NCBI GenBank assembly: GCA_017431185.1
Contig: JAFRLP010000602.1
Location: 1-10,854, forward strand
Direction of reading: 5' to 3'
Length of the DNA stretch: 10,854 nucleotides
Source of the DNA: Victivallales bacterium
GTDB taxonomy: Bacteria > Verrucomicrobiota > Lentisphaeria > Oligosphaerales > Oligosphaeraceae
Within the stretch, counting starts at the first letter, position 1, and every line of letters begins with the position of its first letter. The translations under genes were made by a program, and so were the position numbers. Shown in pieces: positions 1 to 10,717 of the stretch. Below the pieces are notes generated by a model. It was not told the DNA's origin and did not search any database. It was given only the letters and a program-made list of their open reading frames with translations.

Positions 1-341
1 GCCACGCCGATGATCTGCTCCTCGGTCTCCACCGAGCACGGCCCCGCGATCATCGCGAAGTGACCGCCCCCAATCTTCACGCCATTGACGTCGATGACCG
101 TGTCCTGAGGATGGAACTTGCGGTTCGCGGCCTTGTAGGGCTCCTGGATGCGCTTGACGTCCTCGACGATGTCCAGCGCCTTGATGAGGTCGATGTCCAG
201 CACGCTGGTGTCGCCGACCAGGCCGAGAAGCACCTGGCTGGCGCCAGTGGAGGTATGCACGGTGATATCATGCTTCTTCAGCCATTCGACCAGGTTGTCC
301 AGTTGCGCTTGATTGGGATTCGGCTTTAAGACGACGATCAT
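1..341 (-). CDS. aroF: 3-deoxy-7-phosphoheptulonate (DAHP) synthase, 5' part only
   Basis: DAHP synthase condenses phosphoenolpyruvate with erythrose 4-phosphate, the first step of the shikimate pathway to Phe, Tyr and Trp. The first 113 codons are visible and the gene runs off the left edge. Residues 1-70 (starting MIVVLKPNPNQAQLDNL) match the ferredoxin-like regulatory domain of Thermotoga-type Ibeta enzymes, and the start of the catalytic barrel follows, with FHPQDTVIDV (76-85), IGGGHFAMIAGPCSVE (90-105) and the family's GPCS motif. The start is set by AAGGGAG about 9 bases upstream of ATG. The gene has its own promoter and an aromatic-codon leader with a terminator upstream, so control by charging of aromatic tRNAs is expected. 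Family recognition is secure; paralogue naming (aroF, aroG or aroA) is conventional. Confidence 0.93.
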   Translation of the reverse strand, partial: MIVVLKPNPNQAQLDNLVEWLKKHDITVHTSTGASQVLLGLVGDTSVLDIDLIKALDIVEDVKRIQEPYKAANRKFHPQDTVIDVNGVKIGGGHFAMIAGPCSVETEEQIIGV

Positions 342-393
342 TTTGAAGACTCCCTTAGGTATGGATTGTGATGACTTGCCTTTACTGAAATGG

Positions 394-431
394 AAAAAGC
401 CCCGCGGCGATTCGGTATCGCTGCGGGGCTT
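394..431 (-). terminator. Rho-independent attenuator terminator in the aroF leader
   Basis: On the minus strand AAGCCCCGCAGCGAT (431-417) pairs with ATCGCCGCGGGGCTT (411-397) around the 5-base loop ACCGA. This gives a 15-bp GC-rich stem with one A/C mismatch, followed by a short run of Ts ending at 394. It lies inside the leader, 53 bases before the aroF ATG and 72 bases after the leader-peptide stop, so it is an attenuator and not a gene-end terminator. It would also stop read-through from the GH20 gene upstream. Confidence 0.88.
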
Positions 432-569
432 GAAAGCGTTCCCTCTTTTTGCTCTTGCGTGCTTCCGGTGATGTCCTGGAATCCTAAATCTCTTCAGAAG
501 CGTCAAGGCACAGCGATACCGCTACCGGTTCTAAAGTAGAATCGGTAGGAGTAGGTATAGAGGTATCGC
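397..569 (-). promoter_or_regulatory. Four-segment transcription attenuator (trp-operon type) for aroF
   Basis: Segment 1, GCGATACC (569-562), lies within the first aromatic codons of the leader peptide. Segment 2, CGGTATCGCTG (521-511), covers the last codons. Segment 3, CAGCGATACCG (423-413), is the inner 5' arm and loop of the terminator. Segment 4 (411-397) is its 3' arm. Segment 2 contains the exact complement of segment 1 (8 bp) and is the exact complement of segment 3 (11 bp). Expected logic: a ribosome stalled on Tyr/Phe/Trp codons covers segment 1, freeing 2 to pair with 3 as antiterminator; a ribosome that reaches the stop codon covers 2, and 3:4 terminates. The pairings are read from the sequence; the mechanism is inferred from enteric attenuators. 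Confidence 0.85.
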
Positions 570-586
570 CAGTAGTTGCGGTTCAT
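503..586 (-). CDS. Aromatic-rich leader peptide of aroF (27 aa)
   Basis: A 27-codon reading frame starts MNRNYWRYLYTYSYRFYF and ends RTGSGIAVP before TGA. Nine of its first 18 codons are aromatic: Tyr at codons 5, 8, 10, 12, 14 and 17, Trp at 6, Phe at 16 and 18. This density has no reason in an ordinary small protein but is the hallmark of an attenuator leader, here sensing all three products of the pathway that the downstream enzyme starts, with Tyr dominant. The frame sits between a promoter (615-642) and a terminator (394-431). No clear Shine-Dalgarno sequence precedes the ATG (TTCTTGCAACGGCT), which is a weak point. The product probably has no function apart from its translation. Confidence 0.85.
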   Translation of the reverse strand: MNRNYWRYLYTYSYRFYFRTGSGIAVP

Positions 587-614: not shown

Positions 615-642
615 ACTATAAATTCATTTCATGGTTTTTCAA
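615..642 (-). promoter_or_regulatory. Predicted sigma70-type promoter of the aroF leader
   Basis: TTGAAA (642-637), 16 bases, TATAGT (620-615) on the minus strand, placing the start of transcription near 608, about 22 bases before the leader-peptide ATG. The -35 box overlaps the last codons of the upstream GH20 fusion gene. The same TTGAAA with a 16-base spacer precedes the tRNA-Glu gene. Confidence 0.6.
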
Positions 643-3469
643 ATGATTCCAAGTCAACGACCATGCCCCATGCGAGCACTTTACGTCCGGCCAGGTATTC
701 GTCTCGGATGGCCTGCTGAAGGCGGCTGGCGGGTTGCATGGTCTGCCAGTCGATTTCCTCGGCCTTCTCCTTGCCGAAGACGAACCAGGGGAACTCCTCG
801 GAGGGGTTCTGCTCCAGGAGCTTTCCGAGCCGCTGGAAATGCGCGAAGTTGCTCTTCGGCATCTTCTCGGCGAACAGCGGATTGAGCAGCCAGGAGTGGC
901 AGACACCGTAGCGGGGCCTTAAATCGGCAAAATGCTTTTTCATCAGCTCCAGGGAGTTGTCCACCTCCTTGGGATCCATCGGATAGCCGCCGGGAATATG
1001 GATGGCTATCACTGGATCGCCTTCCTGGACGCCCGGAAGCTCCTCCATCGGGATGAAATCCAGCGGCGTCTTCAGCACCTCGTATTCCAGGCGGCCCAGG
1101 CGAACGACTTCGCCGCTGACTTCCTTGTGGATCCATCCGCAGGAACGCGCCCAGATGCCGAGCCGCCCGTCATGCCCGGCGCGGTAGGAGTCGCTCATTC
1201 CGCGCATCCAGGTGGCGGTGAGGCGGTCGGGAAGATACGGGATGGCACCCATGGCGACCATGAGCTGGAAGAGCCCGCCGAGGTTGCCCAACAGCTTGTC
1301 GGGAGTGCCGGTATGCGCATCCGCCCCGTGTACGATGACGTGCTGCAGGAAATAGCTTCCCCACAGCCGCAGCACGAGGTTTTTCCGGGCGATGAGCTCG
1401 ACCTGCTCGAAGTCGTGACACAGTTCGGGGGTGACGGTGCCGCCGATCCACTGCCAGCGCGCTTCGGCGACTTTCGCAGTCAGAAAATCGGGGAAAGGTT
1501 CGCGAAGCAGCCCGGCATTCCAGCCCTTAGGGGTGTCCTGCAGAAGAGTGACACCGAGTTCCTGCGCGACGGATTCCAGCGAGGGGAGGGCGGTGCCCAG
1601 TGACACGCGCGGGACTGGCGGGACATCTGCGAAACTGAAATGCACCACGACTTCATGGACAATGGAATGCAGCTCGGTGCGGAAGAAGTTCGCCACGCCG
1701 TCGCGGTCGCCGATCATGCACCACGTGGTGTTGTCGGCAAGGAGGTTCTGCGGGTCAGCGATCTCTCCGGAGACTTGCGTGACTTCCGTGGGGAGAAGAT
1801 CAGGCTTGCCGTCGCCAATTACCCTGGCATAGACCACGCCGAGCCCGTTGTGACCGGTCGAACGGATGCGCAGGTCGCGAATGGTCGGCCGGTCAAGCGG
1901 GATGTCCATCGTGAAAAACGGCCTTTCGCCGTCATCGCCGGGCTTGGGTAGCCCCTGGTAGATGACCTGGAATTCATCGGTCGCGTTTTCCCGCACCGCC
2001 AATTCAATGCGTTGTACGCCATGCCAGTCGGGAAGCACCATGCGCAGTTCGAGTCGACTCTGCATCGTCGATGCGCGCTGGAGCGCCGCATTGATGGCGG
2101 CTGTCGCGTCGGAGAGCAACGCGTCCAGCTTGGCATGGGGGATGCCGGGCCGCAGGCGTGACCACTGCTCCAGGCGAAGCTGCCCGTAGGTCTCCCAATG
2201 CGCCTTAAGGACATCGGCGCCCTCCGGAGTGGCCTGACGGAGCAGCAGACGGCTCATCCACGTGGCGGTCTCCTGCAGCAATTGGCGGAATTTGACATGC
2301 AGCAGCATGTCGTCGAGGATGTCATTGGCCAGTTCGGAACGCCCAGTCCCCGAAAGAGTAGTCAGAATATCTTCTAATAGAACGAGTTGTGTGTCAAATG
2401 TGTCCGTGAGCTGGTTGGGTCGCCGTAGGAAGCCGCCGCTTTTGGCGTTGGCGAAAGGGGCGTCGGGAATGCGCGGAAGCGCGTAGAAGGAGTTGAGGGC
2501 GTGGATTTGCGCGGGTGTCGGGGTCGCCAGAATCGTCTTGGTGAGATATTCGGCGCACTCTTGGGATGACATGCCCTGCCAAGCCAAAGGCGCGGCGGCG
2601 ATCAGCGGGAGATAGGCGTGCATGAAGTCGTCCCGATGGCACCATGCGGTGACGCACATTCCGGCGGTTTCATATTTGCGTGCATAGTCGAAGTAGGTCG
2701 CCAGATTCTGCCAGCGCAGTTCGCGGGGCGCGATGTGGACTTTTAGGCCATTTGCCTGATACTGTCCCAGGCTGTCGCGCAGGACGCGGTTGCCGAATTT
2801 CCCATGTTTGTTGTCCACCGCCGCATCGTACTCCCAGTCCATCAACTCGAGTTGCTTGGGGAGGAGCGGCAGCAGCTCCGGGAAGTACTCGAACATGTCG
2901 TCCCAGATGACCATCCGGCAGGGGAAGCGCCGCTGGACCAATTCGACCAGCCACTGCAGGTGCTTCAGGAAGAGCCCCGGGCGGGTCTCGCCATGGGCGA
3001 GGCGTTCGCGGCAGCGCGGGCACGTGGCCAGGTGGAAGAGCTCGTCGTAGCCGAAATGTACGACAGGCGAGTCGAAGAGCGGAAGTGCCTGCTCCAGGAA
3101 GGTCTCGATGAGCTGGAGGGTGCCTGGGTGGCTGAGGCACAGCTCGTCGTTCGCCTCGCGAAGGTGCGCGAAATTCGGCTGGGCGAGCAGCTTGTCCGCA
3201 TGGCCGGCCAATTCGAGCGCGGGGATGACCAGGATGCCCTTCTCGCGGCCGTAGGCGACGATTTCGCGAATCTCTTCCGGCGAATACGACTCGTCCTCCG
3301 GCTGGAAATCCACCACGGGGACGCGGATGCTCATCTCGACATAGAAATACAGCGCGTTGTAGCCGTGGCGTGCCAGGAGGTCGATGAATGTCTTGACGAA
3401 GGCGACGGGTTCCTTTTGCCGAGCGACATCCAGTTGCGCGCCGATGATGGGGGAATACTGCGAAGTCAT
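629..3469 (-). CDS. GH20-like glycoside hydrolase fused to a NAT_N/GNAT_C-type acyltransferase module
   Basis: A 946-residue protein with no signal peptide or membrane segment, so probably cytoplasmic. Residues 1-310 form a GH20-like (beta-N-acetylhexosaminidase clan) barrel: VHFGYDELFH at 137-146 carries the paired acid residues D142-E143 expected for substrate-assisted hydrolysis, with WDDMFEYFP (189-197) and W276 as possible pocket residues. Residues 350-470 are mostly helical; 470-600 look beta-rich and unassigned. Residues about 620-946 resemble the acyltransferase pair NAT_N/GNAT_C (DUF5596), with LGRLEYEV (791-798), HIPGGYPMDP (824-833) and CHSWLLNP (857-864). An amino-sugar hydrolase joined to an acyltransferase-like unit suggests sugar de- and re-acylation, but the substrate is unknown. 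No Shine-Dalgarno sequence precedes the ATG; the next Met (45) would cut into the barrel, so this start is kept. Confidence 0.85.
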   Translation of the reverse strand: MTSQYSPIIGAQLDVARQKEPVAFVKTFIDLLARHGYNALYFYVEMSIRVPVVDFQPEDESYSPEEIREIVAYGREKGILVIPALELAGHADKLLAQPNFAHLREANDELCLSHPGTLQLIETFLEQALPLFDSPVVHFGYDELFHLATCPRCRERLAHGETRPGLFLKHLQWLVELVQRRFPCRMVIWDDMFEYFPELLPLLPKQLELMDWEYDAAVDNKHGKFGNRVLRDSLGQYQANGLKVHIAPRELRWQNLATYFDYARKYETAGMCVTAWCHRDDFMHAYLPLIAAAPLAWQGMSSQECAEYLTKTILATPTPAQIHALNSFYALPRIPDAPFANAKSGGFLRRPNQLTDTFDTQLVLLEDILTTLSGTGRSELANDILDDMLLHVKFRQLLQETATWMSRLLLRQATPEGADVLKAHWETYGQLRLEQWSRLRPGIPHAKLDALLSDATAAINAALQRASTMQSRLELRMVLPDWHGVQRIELAVRENATDEFQVIYQGLPKPGDDGERPFFTMDIPLDRPTIRDLRIRSTGHNGLGVVYARVIGDGKPDLLPTEVTQVSGEIADPQNLLADNTTWCMIGDRDGVANFFRTELHSIVHEVVVHFSFADVPPVPRVSLGTALPSLESVAQELGVTLLQDTPKGWNAGLLREPFPDFLTAKVAEARWQWIGGTVTPELCHDFEQVELIARKNLVLRLWGSYFLQHVIVHGADAHTGTPDKLLGNLGGLFQLMVAMGAIPYLPDRLTATWMRGMSDSYRAGHDGRLGIWARSCGWIHKEVSGEVVRLGRLEYEVLKTPLDFIPMEELPGVQEGDPVIAIHIPGGYPMDPKEVDNSLELMKKHFADLRPRYGVCHSWLLNPLFAEKMPKSNFAHFQRLGKLLEQNPSEEFPWFVFGKEKAEEIDWQTMQPASRLQQAIRDEYLAGRKVLAWGMVVDLESFEKP

Positions 3470-4047: not shown

Positions 4048-4110
4048 ATGAGTATTTGGATTGCAATCATCTCGATTGTTATCGTCATCCGGATTAAGTT
4101 CCGCCGATAA
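4048..4110 (+). CDS. Small hydrophobic Ile-rich peptide (20 aa), possible type I toxin-like membrane peptide
   Basis: A 20-codon frame encodes MSIWIAIISIVIVIRIKFRR. It is preceded by AAAGGAGGTGA, a perfect Shine-Dalgarno sequence, about 7 bases before the ATG; this is the main reason to call it a gene. Residues 3-14 are almost purely Ile/Val/Ala/Trp and could span a membrane; the tail (RIKFRR) is basic. That layout recalls single-helix type I toxins such as the Ibs or Fst/Ldr peptides, though I recognise no family by sequence. Nine Ile and two Val in 20 codons also recall branched-chain leader peptides, but no ilv gene or plus-strand U-tract terminator follows. The gene stops one base before a minus-strand terminator, hinting at an opposing RNA. 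Coding status is likely, function unproven. Confidence 0.55.
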   Translation: MSIWIAIISIVIVIRIKFRR

Positions 4111-8189: not shown

Positions 8190-9098
8190 ATGAGTCGGTA
8201 TATCACATCCTTGACACTTCCCGACAAAGACTCGTTTCTCTTGACTGTCATCGCTGAATCCAAGAAGGATTACCCTGAATGGAGCTTTGTGCGCATGCCG
8301 TTCTTTCAGAATGAAGTCGATGGTTATCCAATCGGTCTTTTCCCAAAAGGGCTTTCCCTCGAATTTTCTCCCGTCACGATTCTCTACGGCAACAACGGCA
8401 GCGGCAAATCGACCATCCTGAACCTGATGGCCGAGATTCTTGAAATCGGCCGCCGTTCGCCAATCAACAATTCGCGATACTTCTCGCTATTCGCAAAATT
8501 CTGCCAGTTGACGACTCATTCGGATTTCGATGACATCGACCGACGGCGCGACATCATCACCAGCGACGACGTGTTCAAACATTGCTTCGAGGTCCGTGAT
8601 TCCAACCGCGAAAGCCTCATGCGGCAGAATGAAGTGGTCCAAGAGAAGATCAACGTGCAGCGGAATGGCGTCGTCCCCCTGCGGGAGCTGGAGGATTTCG
8701 GACGCTGGAAACGCGAAGTATCCTTGCAGCGGAAATCCTTTTCTGAAAACATGCGCAGATATTCCAGCCATTTGCTCAAGCCCGCCTCGAACGGCGAGAC
8801 CGCGCTGAAGTTCTTCACCTCCACCATCAACAGCGCAGGCGTCTATCTGCTGGACGAGCCGGAAAACAGCCTCTCTCCCGCCTTCCAGCTGAAGTTGCTG
8901 GAGTTTCTGCAGCAGACAGCCGAATGGATGAACATCCAGTACATCATCGCGACCCACTCCCCGCTGCTCCTCGGGATGCCCAAGGCGAAGATCATCAACC
9001 TGGACGAGGAGGGTGCCCCCAAACGCAAGTGGTCGGAACTGGAGAATATCCGTATTCTCCACGACTTCTTCGCGGAAAGAGAGGCCGAGTTCAAGTGA
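8190..9098 (+). CDS. AAA/ABC-type ATPase (COG3910-like stand-alone predicted ATPase)
   Basis: A 302-residue stand-alone ATPase of the ABC/SMC-like class. Walker A GNNGSGKST is at 67-75, the ABC signature appears as SNGETAL (200-206), Walker B VYLLDEPENSLSP at 218-230 (catalytic E223), and the H-loop IIATHSPLLL at 252-261. Between the Walker A and signature motifs lies a compact helical insert (about 85-195) with ITSDDVFKHCFEVRDSN, too short for a coiled-coil arm. No nuclease (TOPRIM, HNH) is fused. The carboxyl end (KWSELENIRILHDFF, 280-294) resembles what I recall of stand-alone ATPases of unknown function in gut Firmicutes, suggesting a mobile gene family. AGAGGA overlapping the LRR stop codon is its ribosome site, so translation of the two may be coupled. 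Confidence 0.88.
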   Translation: MSRYITSLTLPDKDSFLLTVIAESKKDYPEWSFVRMPFFQNEVDGYPIGLFPKGLSLEFSPVTILYGNNGSGKSTILNLMAEILEIGRRSPINNSRYFSLFAKFCQLTTHSDFDDIDRRRDIITSDDVFKHCFEVRDSNRESLMRQNEVVQEKINVQRNGVVPLRELEDFGRWKREVSLQRKSFSENMRRYSSHLLKPASNGETALKFFTSTINSAGVYLLDEPENSLSPAFQLKLLEFLQQTAEWMNIQYIIATHSPLLLGMPKAKIINLDEEGAPKRKWSELENIRILHDFFAEREAEFK

Positions 9099-9667: not shown

Positions 9668-10717
9668 TTATTCTCCGCTTTCTTCTGTCGGCTCATTTGT
9701 TTGCATATGTTGTTTAAAATCGGATTCCAAAATGTCAATCATCGATTTTTCATGTTTATCCGCCTTATCGACAGTCCATCCCTCCTTATCCCTTTCGGCT
9801 AGATGATACATGAGTAGCATTTTAATGCTTTCAAGACGCCCAGTGTTAAGCCAGTCCTTTACCCGTCCAAATTTGGTTCCTATCCCATCGTCTGACTGCG
9901 CGGAATTGGCACTCTGCGACATCATGGCTAGATTTCCAAATTTATGAAGGTTTGCTTCTGGATCATCTCGATCTCCCCAAATCTCATCTTCTTTTGACTG
10001 CGGATGCAAATGCTCGATGGAAATATTATCCCTAAAACGATATCCAGAAATAGCTTCACGCTCTCTTTCGTTCAAATCAGCAAAAAGGTCATTATTTTCC
10101 TCACGTTGATGCAATTCCCAGAGCAGAAAGTCCAACTTCCAAAACCAGTAACGAAAAATCTTGCCATAACACAAGTTGTTCGAATCCAAGGTGCCCCGCT
10201 CAGAGAAGTCCTTTTTATGCCAACTGTTTTCCATCTTACGTAAGGCATCGTAGGACAATGCTCCGCGATTTGAAGCGAAATAGGCCTTCAAAACCCATTC
10301 CTGCGCTTCTCCAGAGGAAACATGGAGCATCGTCTGAAATTGCTTCATTCGGTTGATCTCATCGTCCGTTCCAGTATTATCACGGAAAGCATAATCCAAA
10401 TCCCCTTCAGAATCCTGTAAATATACGATGTGCTTGTCCAACCATTCTCGGTACTTCTCAAGTTCAACAATGTAATCTTCTGGTTTGAACTTATTTGCTC
10501 CCAAATTCGTTTGGAATAATTCAATCAACCTATGCCTCTGAATAAGTGGTTCAGATACTTTTTGGATCCTGCATAGACAACACAGTGCGTGCAGAGCCAG
10601 TATCTCTGGCCTCATGACCAAACGATTCTTAGGAGGTGTTTTGTCTTCGGCAGGTGGTGTGTCGTTTTCTGTCTTTTTTTCAACCCCAATGACTTTTTTG
10701 TATTTATCATTTTTCAC
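9668..10717 (-). CDS. GmrSD-type DUF1524 HNH nuclease protein, probably 5'-truncated
   Basis: The 349-residue product carries the HNH nuclease signature of the DUF1524 family: YRFRDNISIEHLHPQ (226-240) supplies the E-H-x-H strand, and LHKFGNLAMMSQSANSAQSD (257-276) the H...N...N helix. A helical region (36-220, from RPEILALHALCCL) precedes it, as in the middle of DUF262-DUF1524 proteins, which restrict modified phage DNA. The DUF262 (ParB-like NTPase) part expected before it is absent. The only available start is a GTG within CACTAGTG, without a ribosome site, at the junction with insertion-sequence-like DNA; the first 35 residues are a charged linker, not a normal N-terminus. The simplest reading is a gene cut by an insertion. 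It is more AT-rich than the genes to its left, a sign of separate acquisition. Confidence 0.8.
   Translation of the reverse strand: MKNDKYKKVIGVEKKTENDTPPAEDKTPPKNRLVMRPEILALHALCCLCRIQKVSEPLIQRHRLIELFQTNLGANKFKPEDYIVELEKYREWLDKHIVYLQDSEGDLDYAFRDNTGTDDEINRMKQFQTMLHVSSGEAQEWVLKAYFASNRGALSYDALRKMENSWHKKDFSERGTLDSNNLCYGKIFRYWFWKLDFLLWELHQREENNDLFADLNEREREAISGYRFRDNISIEHLHPQSKEDEIWGDRDDPEANLHKFGNLAMMSQSANSAQSDDGIGTKFGRVKDWLNTGRLESIKMLLMYHLAERDKEGWTVDKADKHEKSMIDILESDFKQHMQTNEPTEESGE

Follow-up and report, generated by a model that had tools for sequence, protein, structure and literature searches.

The window analyzed here, a 10,854-nucleotide stretch of a Victivallales genome (contig JAFRLP010000602.1), opens with part of a DAHP synthase gene, and a short frame crowded with aromatic codons precedes that gene on the same strand. 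This raises the question of how entry into the aromatic pathway is controlled in this lineage. Enteric bacteria govern this step mainly through repressors, and for amino acid genes in Bacillota the usual picture of RNA control is the T-box. The initial annotation proposed control by translation of a leader peptide, and computation supports it through the folds obtained at successive ribosome positions and through conservation in relatives. The reading we favor, with a probability of roughly 90%, is a trp/his-type ribosome-mediated attenuator that sets the aroF operon by the charging of tRNA-Tyr and tRNA-Phe, possibly also of tRNA-Trp.

The controlled gene (3..341, minus strand) is represented by its 5' part and runs off the window. 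It encodes a type I-beta DAHP synthase with a ferredoxin-like regulatory domain; the 113-residue fragment matches PF18152 (74.4 bits), and its PF00793 score of 18.6 bits is below the cut-off of 25.5. The closest match, locus L001 of Victivallales bacterium isolate RGIG1601 from goat abomasum, is 96% identical over the fragment and carries the complete gene (338 amino acids; PF00793, 248 bits), which confirms the enzyme named initially. A Shine-Dalgarno-like AAGGGAG can be read ahead of the window gene (348..356, minus). In L001, the operon has the order aroF-tyrA-aroB-aroA, with DAHP synthase followed by prephenate dehydrogenase, 3-dehydroquinate synthase, and EPSP synthase; Oligosphaera ethanolica (L005) has aroF-tyrA-pheA, where prephenate dehydrogenase is followed by chorismate mutase-prephenate dehydratase. 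Prephenate dehydrogenase belongs to the Tyr branch, in keeping with a Tyr-heavy leader. Genomes G001, G002, and G003 hold one DAHP synthase each, their second matches (32 to 34% identical) being taken for KDO8P synthase.

The leader frame, MNRNYWRYLYTYSYRFYFRTGSGIAVP closed by a stop codon, is the translation of 586-503 on the minus strand (503..586) and ends 161 bases before the DAHP synthase start. Translation reproduced the 27 codons described initially, with six Tyr, two Phe, and one Trp, all nine within codons 5-18. Such a codon-rich leader (9 aromatic codons in 27) is a hallmark of trp/his-type attenuators, and it is kept in relatives, although a clear Shine-Dalgarno sequence is missing in the window. 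At least nine aromatic codons in 18 were found in none of 60 shuffles of the 350-base stretch upstream of the L001 gene. The leader is not a chance frame, given these shuffles, the identity of 285 bases between the window and L001, from 40 bases before the leader through the gene start, and the specificity for DAHP synthases described below. A chance ORF was rejected on the shuffles and on the upstream regions of 494 other ORFs. The next relatives, L002 and L003, are further Victivallales from the rumen. Against L002, 83/84 leader bases and 28/28 third positions are identical, versus 77/113 third positions in the first 113 codons of the gene; against L003, the values are 81/84, 27/28, and 83/113.

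Upstream of the leader, a sigma-70-like promoter site (615..642, minus) joins a -35 element TTGAAA (642-637) to a -10 element TATAGT (620-615) over a 16-base spacer. Because 0.7 such sites are expected by chance per 1,000 bases scanned, the match is weak alone. The same hexamers and spacing occur in L001, L002, and L003, 27 to 28 bases 5' of the leader ATG, and L002 keeps them though its sequence farther upstream differs. Downstream of the leader lies an intrinsic terminator (394..430, minus), made of a 3:4 hairpin at 430-398 (-24.3 kcal/mol) and a TTTTT run at 398-394 whose first T is also the last base of the stem. The setting between promoter and terminator, noted from the letters alone, is thereby borne out. 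A simple terminator scan of this strand over positions 1-1000 listed none and missed the 430-398 hairpin, which we attribute to a mismatch in its stem. A terminator between leader and first gene is typical of trp/his-type attenuators and is present in 120 of 124 distinct leaders, the exceptions being L029, L115, L122, and L142.

The RNA between promoter and gene offers alternative pairings. Region 1 (TGGCGATACC; 562..571, minus) spans the Trp6-Arg7-Tyr8 codons. Region 2 (CGGTATCGCTGTG; 509..521, minus) contains the last leader codons, and region 3 (CGCAGCGATACCG; 413..425, minus) lies within the 5' arm and the loop of the terminator hairpin. Folding also places an inner hairpin within the leader (522..548, minus), enclosing the Phe16-Tyr17-Phe18 codons. 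Region 2 is partly complementary to region 1, the 1:2 pairing of TGGCGATACC (571-562) with GGTATCGCTG (520-511) being perfect over 10 bases when G-U is counted, and fully complementary to region 3: the 2:3 antiterminator pairs 521-509 with 425-413 in a perfect 13-bp duplex of -22.5 kcal/mol. The stretch 600-370 folds better than 200 of 200 shuffles (z -4.56). Since region 2 is the end of the leader ORF, it is the site that a ribosome finishing translation would occupy. Read from the sequence, all four predicted parts of a trp-type attenuator are in place.

The behavior of these parts was followed by folding the RNA 3' of the ribosome footprint up to the terminator loop, a stage at which region 4 has not yet been made. 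For the window, the expected number of arm-and-loop bases paired upstream is 17 with the A-site at each of codons 1-18; it falls to 15 at codon 19, 12 at codon 20, and 7 at codon 21, and is 7 at the stop. According to structures drawn for Tyr5, Tyr8, Tyr12, Phe18, Gly21, and the stop, the 13-bp antiterminator forms with the ribosome on codons 5-18 and is lost at Gly21 or the stop. The wider leader set comprises 135 calls including the window, reduced to 124 distinct leaders by merging and to 120 with a terminator. Across these 120, a stall at the median aromatic codon sequesters a fraction of 0.67 of the terminator arm and loop; the value is 0.49 when loci exchange arms, 0.45 when arms are shuffled, and 0.27 for a ribosome at the stop. 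A leader's own fraction exceeds the mean of swapped arms in 104/120 cases, the mean of shuffled arms in 111/120, and the stop value in 114/120. Trp/his-type attenuators have an antiterminator that is incompatible with the terminator and that a ribosome at the leader stop keeps from forming. Such an element is seen in the 13-bp 2:3 duplex, in the window folds, and across the 120 leaders. Taken locus by locus, exceptional pairing is frequently absent, with 48/120 loci in the top 5% against swapped arms and 50/120 against shuffled arms. Aromatic codons are concentrated ahead of the drop in pairing: among the 109 leaders with a defined drop, they make up 862/2114 codons before it versus 169/1206 after it, and 849 of 970 clustered aromatic codons lie ahead of it.

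Under the attenuator reading, RNA polymerase would start near 608 and a ribosome would begin translating at 586. Where Tyr-tRNA and Phe-tRNA suffice, this ribosome would reach the last leader codons or the stop and cover region 2; region 3 would then be free, the 3:4 hairpin could form, and transcription would end near 394. If Tyr or Phe runs short, the ribosome would stall on codons 5-18, region 2 would pair with region 3, and polymerase would read into the DAHP synthase gene and the genes behind it (tyrA, aroB, and aroA in L001). The ORF, the competing pairings, the way these shift with ribosome position, and the conservation in relatives come from sequence and computation; to them, this scheme adds three suppositions, namely transcription and translation of the leader, stalling of ribosomes on it, and termination that tracks the supply of amino acids. 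Without translation, the 1:2 hairpin would presumably form first and lead to termination, a step that equilibrium folding does not support: 1:2 is not favored over 2:3 in the window, and the antiterminator forms even with the ribosome at codons 1-4, so that a protective 1:2 hairpin would depend on folding order alone. The 1:2 pairing is present in the window, a leader-internal hairpin covaries in 15 Bacillota sequences, and L003, whose region 1 reads CAATACC, breaks one 1:2 pair.

How widely such leaders precede DAHP synthases was assessed in two sets of loci. The first holds the best 80 of 368 loci from a scan of genome contigs, with the upstream ORF scored 40-270 bases 5' of the gene. Upstream sequence suffices for 77 DAHP synthase genes, and at least seven aromatic codons in 18 precede 67 of these, versus 2 of 494 other ORFs (at least 200 codons, any frame) at the same loci; for at least nine, the counts are 45/77 and 0/494. 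The check suggested with the initial annotation, namely that aromatic codons be kept before orthologues, thus came out in its favor. The second set, 134 loci, derives from 197 genomes of the Oligosphaera class and 249 of the Anaerovorax phylum, which we label Lentisphaeria and Bacillota throughout. A strict caller required at least six aromatic codons in 18, reached by at most 6 of 200 shuffles, and a stop 40-270 bases before the gene; equal proteins were merged before counting, and identity was measured to L001. Because the loci are best matches and chosen stretches rather than a random sample, the resulting shares are not prevalences: at 60% identity or more, leaders were called before 51/76 Lentisphaeria (23 negative, 2 too short) and 58/67 Bacillota DAHP synthases, at 50-60% before 15/41 from Bacillota, and below 60% before 1/15 from Lentisphaeria (L199, doubtful). 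Calls elsewhere were 2/2 in Coriobacteriia, 0/4 in Spirochaetes, and 0/1 in Planctomycetes, and a search of 149 genomes of the class of L037 gave one clear leader (L237) among 19 further loci. By eye, four negative calls look real (L116, L126, L036, and L047), L015 has too little upstream sequence, and five positive calls are doubtful (L029, L115, L142, L174, and L199). Plasmid records searched with the leader region returned nothing.

Two close DAHP synthase copies occur in several Lentisphaeria genomes (G153, G154, G157, G162, G163, G170, and G173). By the strict caller, G157, G162, G163, and G170 have an aromatic leader on one copy and none on the other.

Regions 2 and 3 are invariant in the clade of the window (three distinct leaders), so covariation is seen in more distant relatives only. 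From the 124 distinct leaders, 15 Bacillota leaders were selected for their similar region 2. One of these supplied the structure, an origin that favors it over slid versions in the comparisons that follow. Inner hairpin and antiterminator together are paired in 93.2% of cells versus 26.8-55.6% after sliding by 1-3 columns, with 6/19 pairs changed on both sides (3/10 in the antiterminator). None of 500 shuffles did as well in percentage paired, in cells changed on both sides, or in covariation score; on two weak measures, pairs changed on both sides and further pair types, 11/500 and 179/500 did. Two antiterminator pairs fail in 5 of the 15 sequences. Inner hairpin and terminator are paired in 95.0% of cells versus 37.8-53.7% when slid, with 11/20 pairs changed on both sides and 0/500 shuffles matching on any measure. 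Three small Lentisphaeria sets were also analyzed. Inner hairpin, antiterminator, and terminator were all found in set 1 (1/7 pairs changed on both sides in each), antiterminator and terminator in set 2 (3/7 each), and inner hairpin (4/7) and terminator (1/7) in set 3; in sets 1 and 3, helices outside the model score equal or nearly equal.

Codon choice in the leaders favors structure as well. Compared with the mean for the same peptide encoded by redrawn codons, the leader RNA is more stably folded in 112 of 124 leaders and ranks in the best 5% in 75/124; for single loci, the redraw gave 14/200 for the window, 10/200 for L002, and 65/200 for L003. Shine-Dalgarno sequences were counted in 122 leaders with enough sequence. 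Lentisphaeria leaders have one in 5/51 cases by a strict and 20/51 by a loose definition (their DAHP synthase genes, 27 and 48), and Bacillota leaders in 44/69 and 53 (genes, 58 and 68). In the window (586), L002, L003, and L018, a pyrimidine-rich stretch before the leader start stands in the place of the Shine-Dalgarno sequence. The Corynebacterium glutamicum ilvBNC leader is reportedly made without a ribosome binding site, according to a study cited in PMC4046766.

Could the terminator merely end the transcript of the upstream glycosidase-like gene (629-3469), with the ORF a chance intergenic frame? That gene lies on the same strand and ends at 629, about 200 bases before the terminator, which would suit such a role. 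However, the promoter-like site falls between gene and leader and is kept in L002 despite the differing upstream sequence, the leader is conserved at silent sites, and aromatic leaders precede many other DAHP synthases at frequencies far from those of other ORFs (67/77 versus 2/494), so that this explanation appears extremely improbable. We give as little credence to sensing by a riboswitch, T-box, or protein-bound attenuator with the ORF secondary. One locus, L206, among the 20 scanned loci of other Bacillota DAHP synthases does have a T-box, but the window and 15 relatives (12 with a leader) gave only tRNA matches at gathering score, and what is conserved are the codons and pairing regions of a translation-coupled switch. 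At that score, neither RF00230 (T-box) in the window and these relatives nor any Rfam 15 amino acid leader family in the window was matched, and T-box or another Rfam family was rejected on these scans. Twenty more loci (15 other Lentisphaeria DAHP synthases and 5 trpE) had no T-box. A peptide acting in trans after release, or as an arrest peptide, and not through codon supply is slightly easier to entertain, as a trpL-derived peptide is reported to act in trans in Sinorhizobium (PMC7298713); still, we hold it to be very unlikely, since the peptides diverge by eye between clades, save for aromatic residues and those whose codons lie in paired RNA, and Phe and Tyr replace one another.

A closer contender is a variant of the attenuator reading, whose odds overlap with it: a leader that senses Trp as strongly as Tyr and Phe, as the initial annotation implied by naming all three amino acids. 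In its favor, the window, L002, and L003 share the single Trp codon (Trp6), a Trp codon occurs in the sensing zone of 12/50 Lentisphaeria leaders (as WW in L096 and L100), and one DAHP synthase supplies all three pathways in G001-G003. Codon counts point the other way. Sensing zones hold Phe, Tyr, and Trp at 167/162/14 in 50 Lentisphaeria leaders (Trp, 14 of 343 aromatic) and at 275/216/13 in 57 Bacillota leaders (13 of 504), a Trp share below that of 80 DAHP synthase proteins (711/401/117; 117 of 1229), these being raw counts with no significance test; the window leader itself has one Trp codon versus six for Tyr. In addition, trpE, found in 6/7 genomes examined, has a leader of its own in G003, G001, and G002 (L225, L226, and L228): a conserved leader ending FSWRWR lies upstream, with a terminator-like hairpin by eye between leader and gene, apparently a Trp attenuator. 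Trp-rich frames also precede trpE in G048 (AWYWRGHRW), G053 (AWWWRGLRW), and Oligosphaera (SWSWRWR); by locus, such frames stand in L227, L229, and L230. The trpE leader appears to give Trp its own gauge, and that of DAHP synthase would read mainly Tyr and Phe. Codon counts and the separate trpE leader weaken Trp as an equal signal, a role we consider unlikely though far from negligible; a minor Trp input is possible. The claim of sensing all three thus finds support for Tyr and Phe and not for Trp on equal terms. Comparison with relatives supports well a probable real attenuator, ordinary in principle, that reads mainly Tyr and Phe.

The leader-bearing DAHP synthase clade unites Lentisphaeria with Clostridia, and the Lentisphaeria enzymes of at most 54% identity, with that one doubtful call among 15, group apart from it. 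Gene and switch may accordingly have arrived as a unit. In two quick trees, Lentisphaeria and Bacillota are intermingled. When all 26 Lentisphaeria rows were constrained to one group, the log-likelihood rose by 26.5 and p-AU was 0.783, so that a single clade is not rejected and, as this constraint fits better, repeated transfer between phyla is not claimed. Tentatively, and at somewhat worse than even odds, we may be looking at a family of Tyr/Phe attenuators, undescribed as far as our literature searches reached, that was inherited with one type I-beta DAHP synthase clade; Lentisphaeria would have received both together, kept the switch, and rewritten nearly all of its sequence. In the same tentative reading, the family would span Clostridia, part of Lentisphaeria, and a few Coriobacteriia, with sensing codons shifted, Trp added in some lines, and the Shine-Dalgarno sequence lost. 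Plain vertical descent of gene and attenuator is also compatible with the trees, which fix neither direction nor number of transfers.

Elsewhere in the window, the gene upstream of the leader (629-3469, minus) encodes a 946-residue protein with a glycosyl hydrolase 20 catalytic domain joined to a GNAT_C domain. A 20-codon hydrophobic ORF at 4048-4110 (plus), MSIWIAIISIVIVIRIKFRR, has a strong Shine-Dalgarno sequence and, by eye, a hairpin directly 3'; among all loci searched, its pattern occurs besides the window only in L001. We take it to resemble the small membrane peptides of type I toxin-antitoxin pairs. An AAA_21-type ATPase (8190-9098, plus) lies downstream of a leucine-rich-repeat protein, and a protein with a GmrSD C-terminal domain is encoded at 9668-10717 (minus), with no obvious partner in the window.

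The first enzyme of the aromatic pathway thus appears to be under a translation-coupled switch, one without an Rfam match, in Lentisphaerota and many Clostridia. Many carriers are gut and rumen genomes. The switch gives a prediction that can be applied directly to many uncultured gut bacteria, and the leaders form a natural series in which to study how an attenuator stays functional through changes in sequence and sensing codons.

Among known systems, the enterobacterial trp, pheA, and his leaders define the four-region logic, in which a codon-rich leader decides between terminator and antiterminator. The leader described here would follow the same logic before other genes, and the window has no Rfam leader match at gathering score. 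T-boxes bind tRNA directly, without translation. Those of Bacillota likewise read tRNA charging to control termination, and the window has no T-box match at that score. The T-box of L206, a Bacillota DAHP synthase outside the leader-bearing clade, is another tRNA-sensing control of the same function. A close functional parallel is aroR of C. glutamicum, whose aroR-aroF attenuator was reportedly first described by Neshat et al. in 2014. Leader-peptide attenuation of aroF by aroR (PMC11802643; predicted in PMC4046766) resembles our case in its Phe-Tyr-Phe leader before a DAHP synthase operon and in stalling that raises transcription (PMC11802643); compared by description only, it differs in reportedly responding to Phe, not Tyr, limitation and in belonging to another phylum. 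Acholeplasma uORFC-13-1 is similar in that a uORF with a Phe-coding U run is predicted ahead of aroF, together with a promoter and a terminator, and it differs, again by description, in comprising 24 examples from Acholeplasma and environmental sequences only (PMC8632094). Attenuation of E. coli aroF has been hypothesized (PMC8632094). The hisS leader of bacilli is also a translated leader before an amino acid gene, for another amino acid and gene (PMC2965389), and the leucine-rich attenuator peptide of Staphylococcus aureus is a Bacillota leader for other amino acids and genes (PMC5794164). Apart from ermC, Naville and Gautheret (2010) were aware of no leader peptide system beyond Proteobacteria and Actinobacteria, and their own addition was hisS in bacilli (PMC2965389); later Bacillota systems exist (PMC5794164). 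In Actinobacteria, the operons for Phe or Tyr showed no conserved RNA structure upstream (PMC1262725), and the terms phosphoheptulonate and leader peptide are absent from the main text of PMC11109978. Our searches found no literature on leader-peptide attenuators in Lentisphaerae, though subscription papers could hold one. The noteworthiness initially given to translation-based control of DAHP synthase therefore applies to its occurrence in this lineage and not to the principle, for which aroR is a reported and uORFC-13-1 a proposed precedent. The mechanism itself is known; what is new here, within the reach of these searches, is that it occurs in Lentisphaerota and that the family is so broad.
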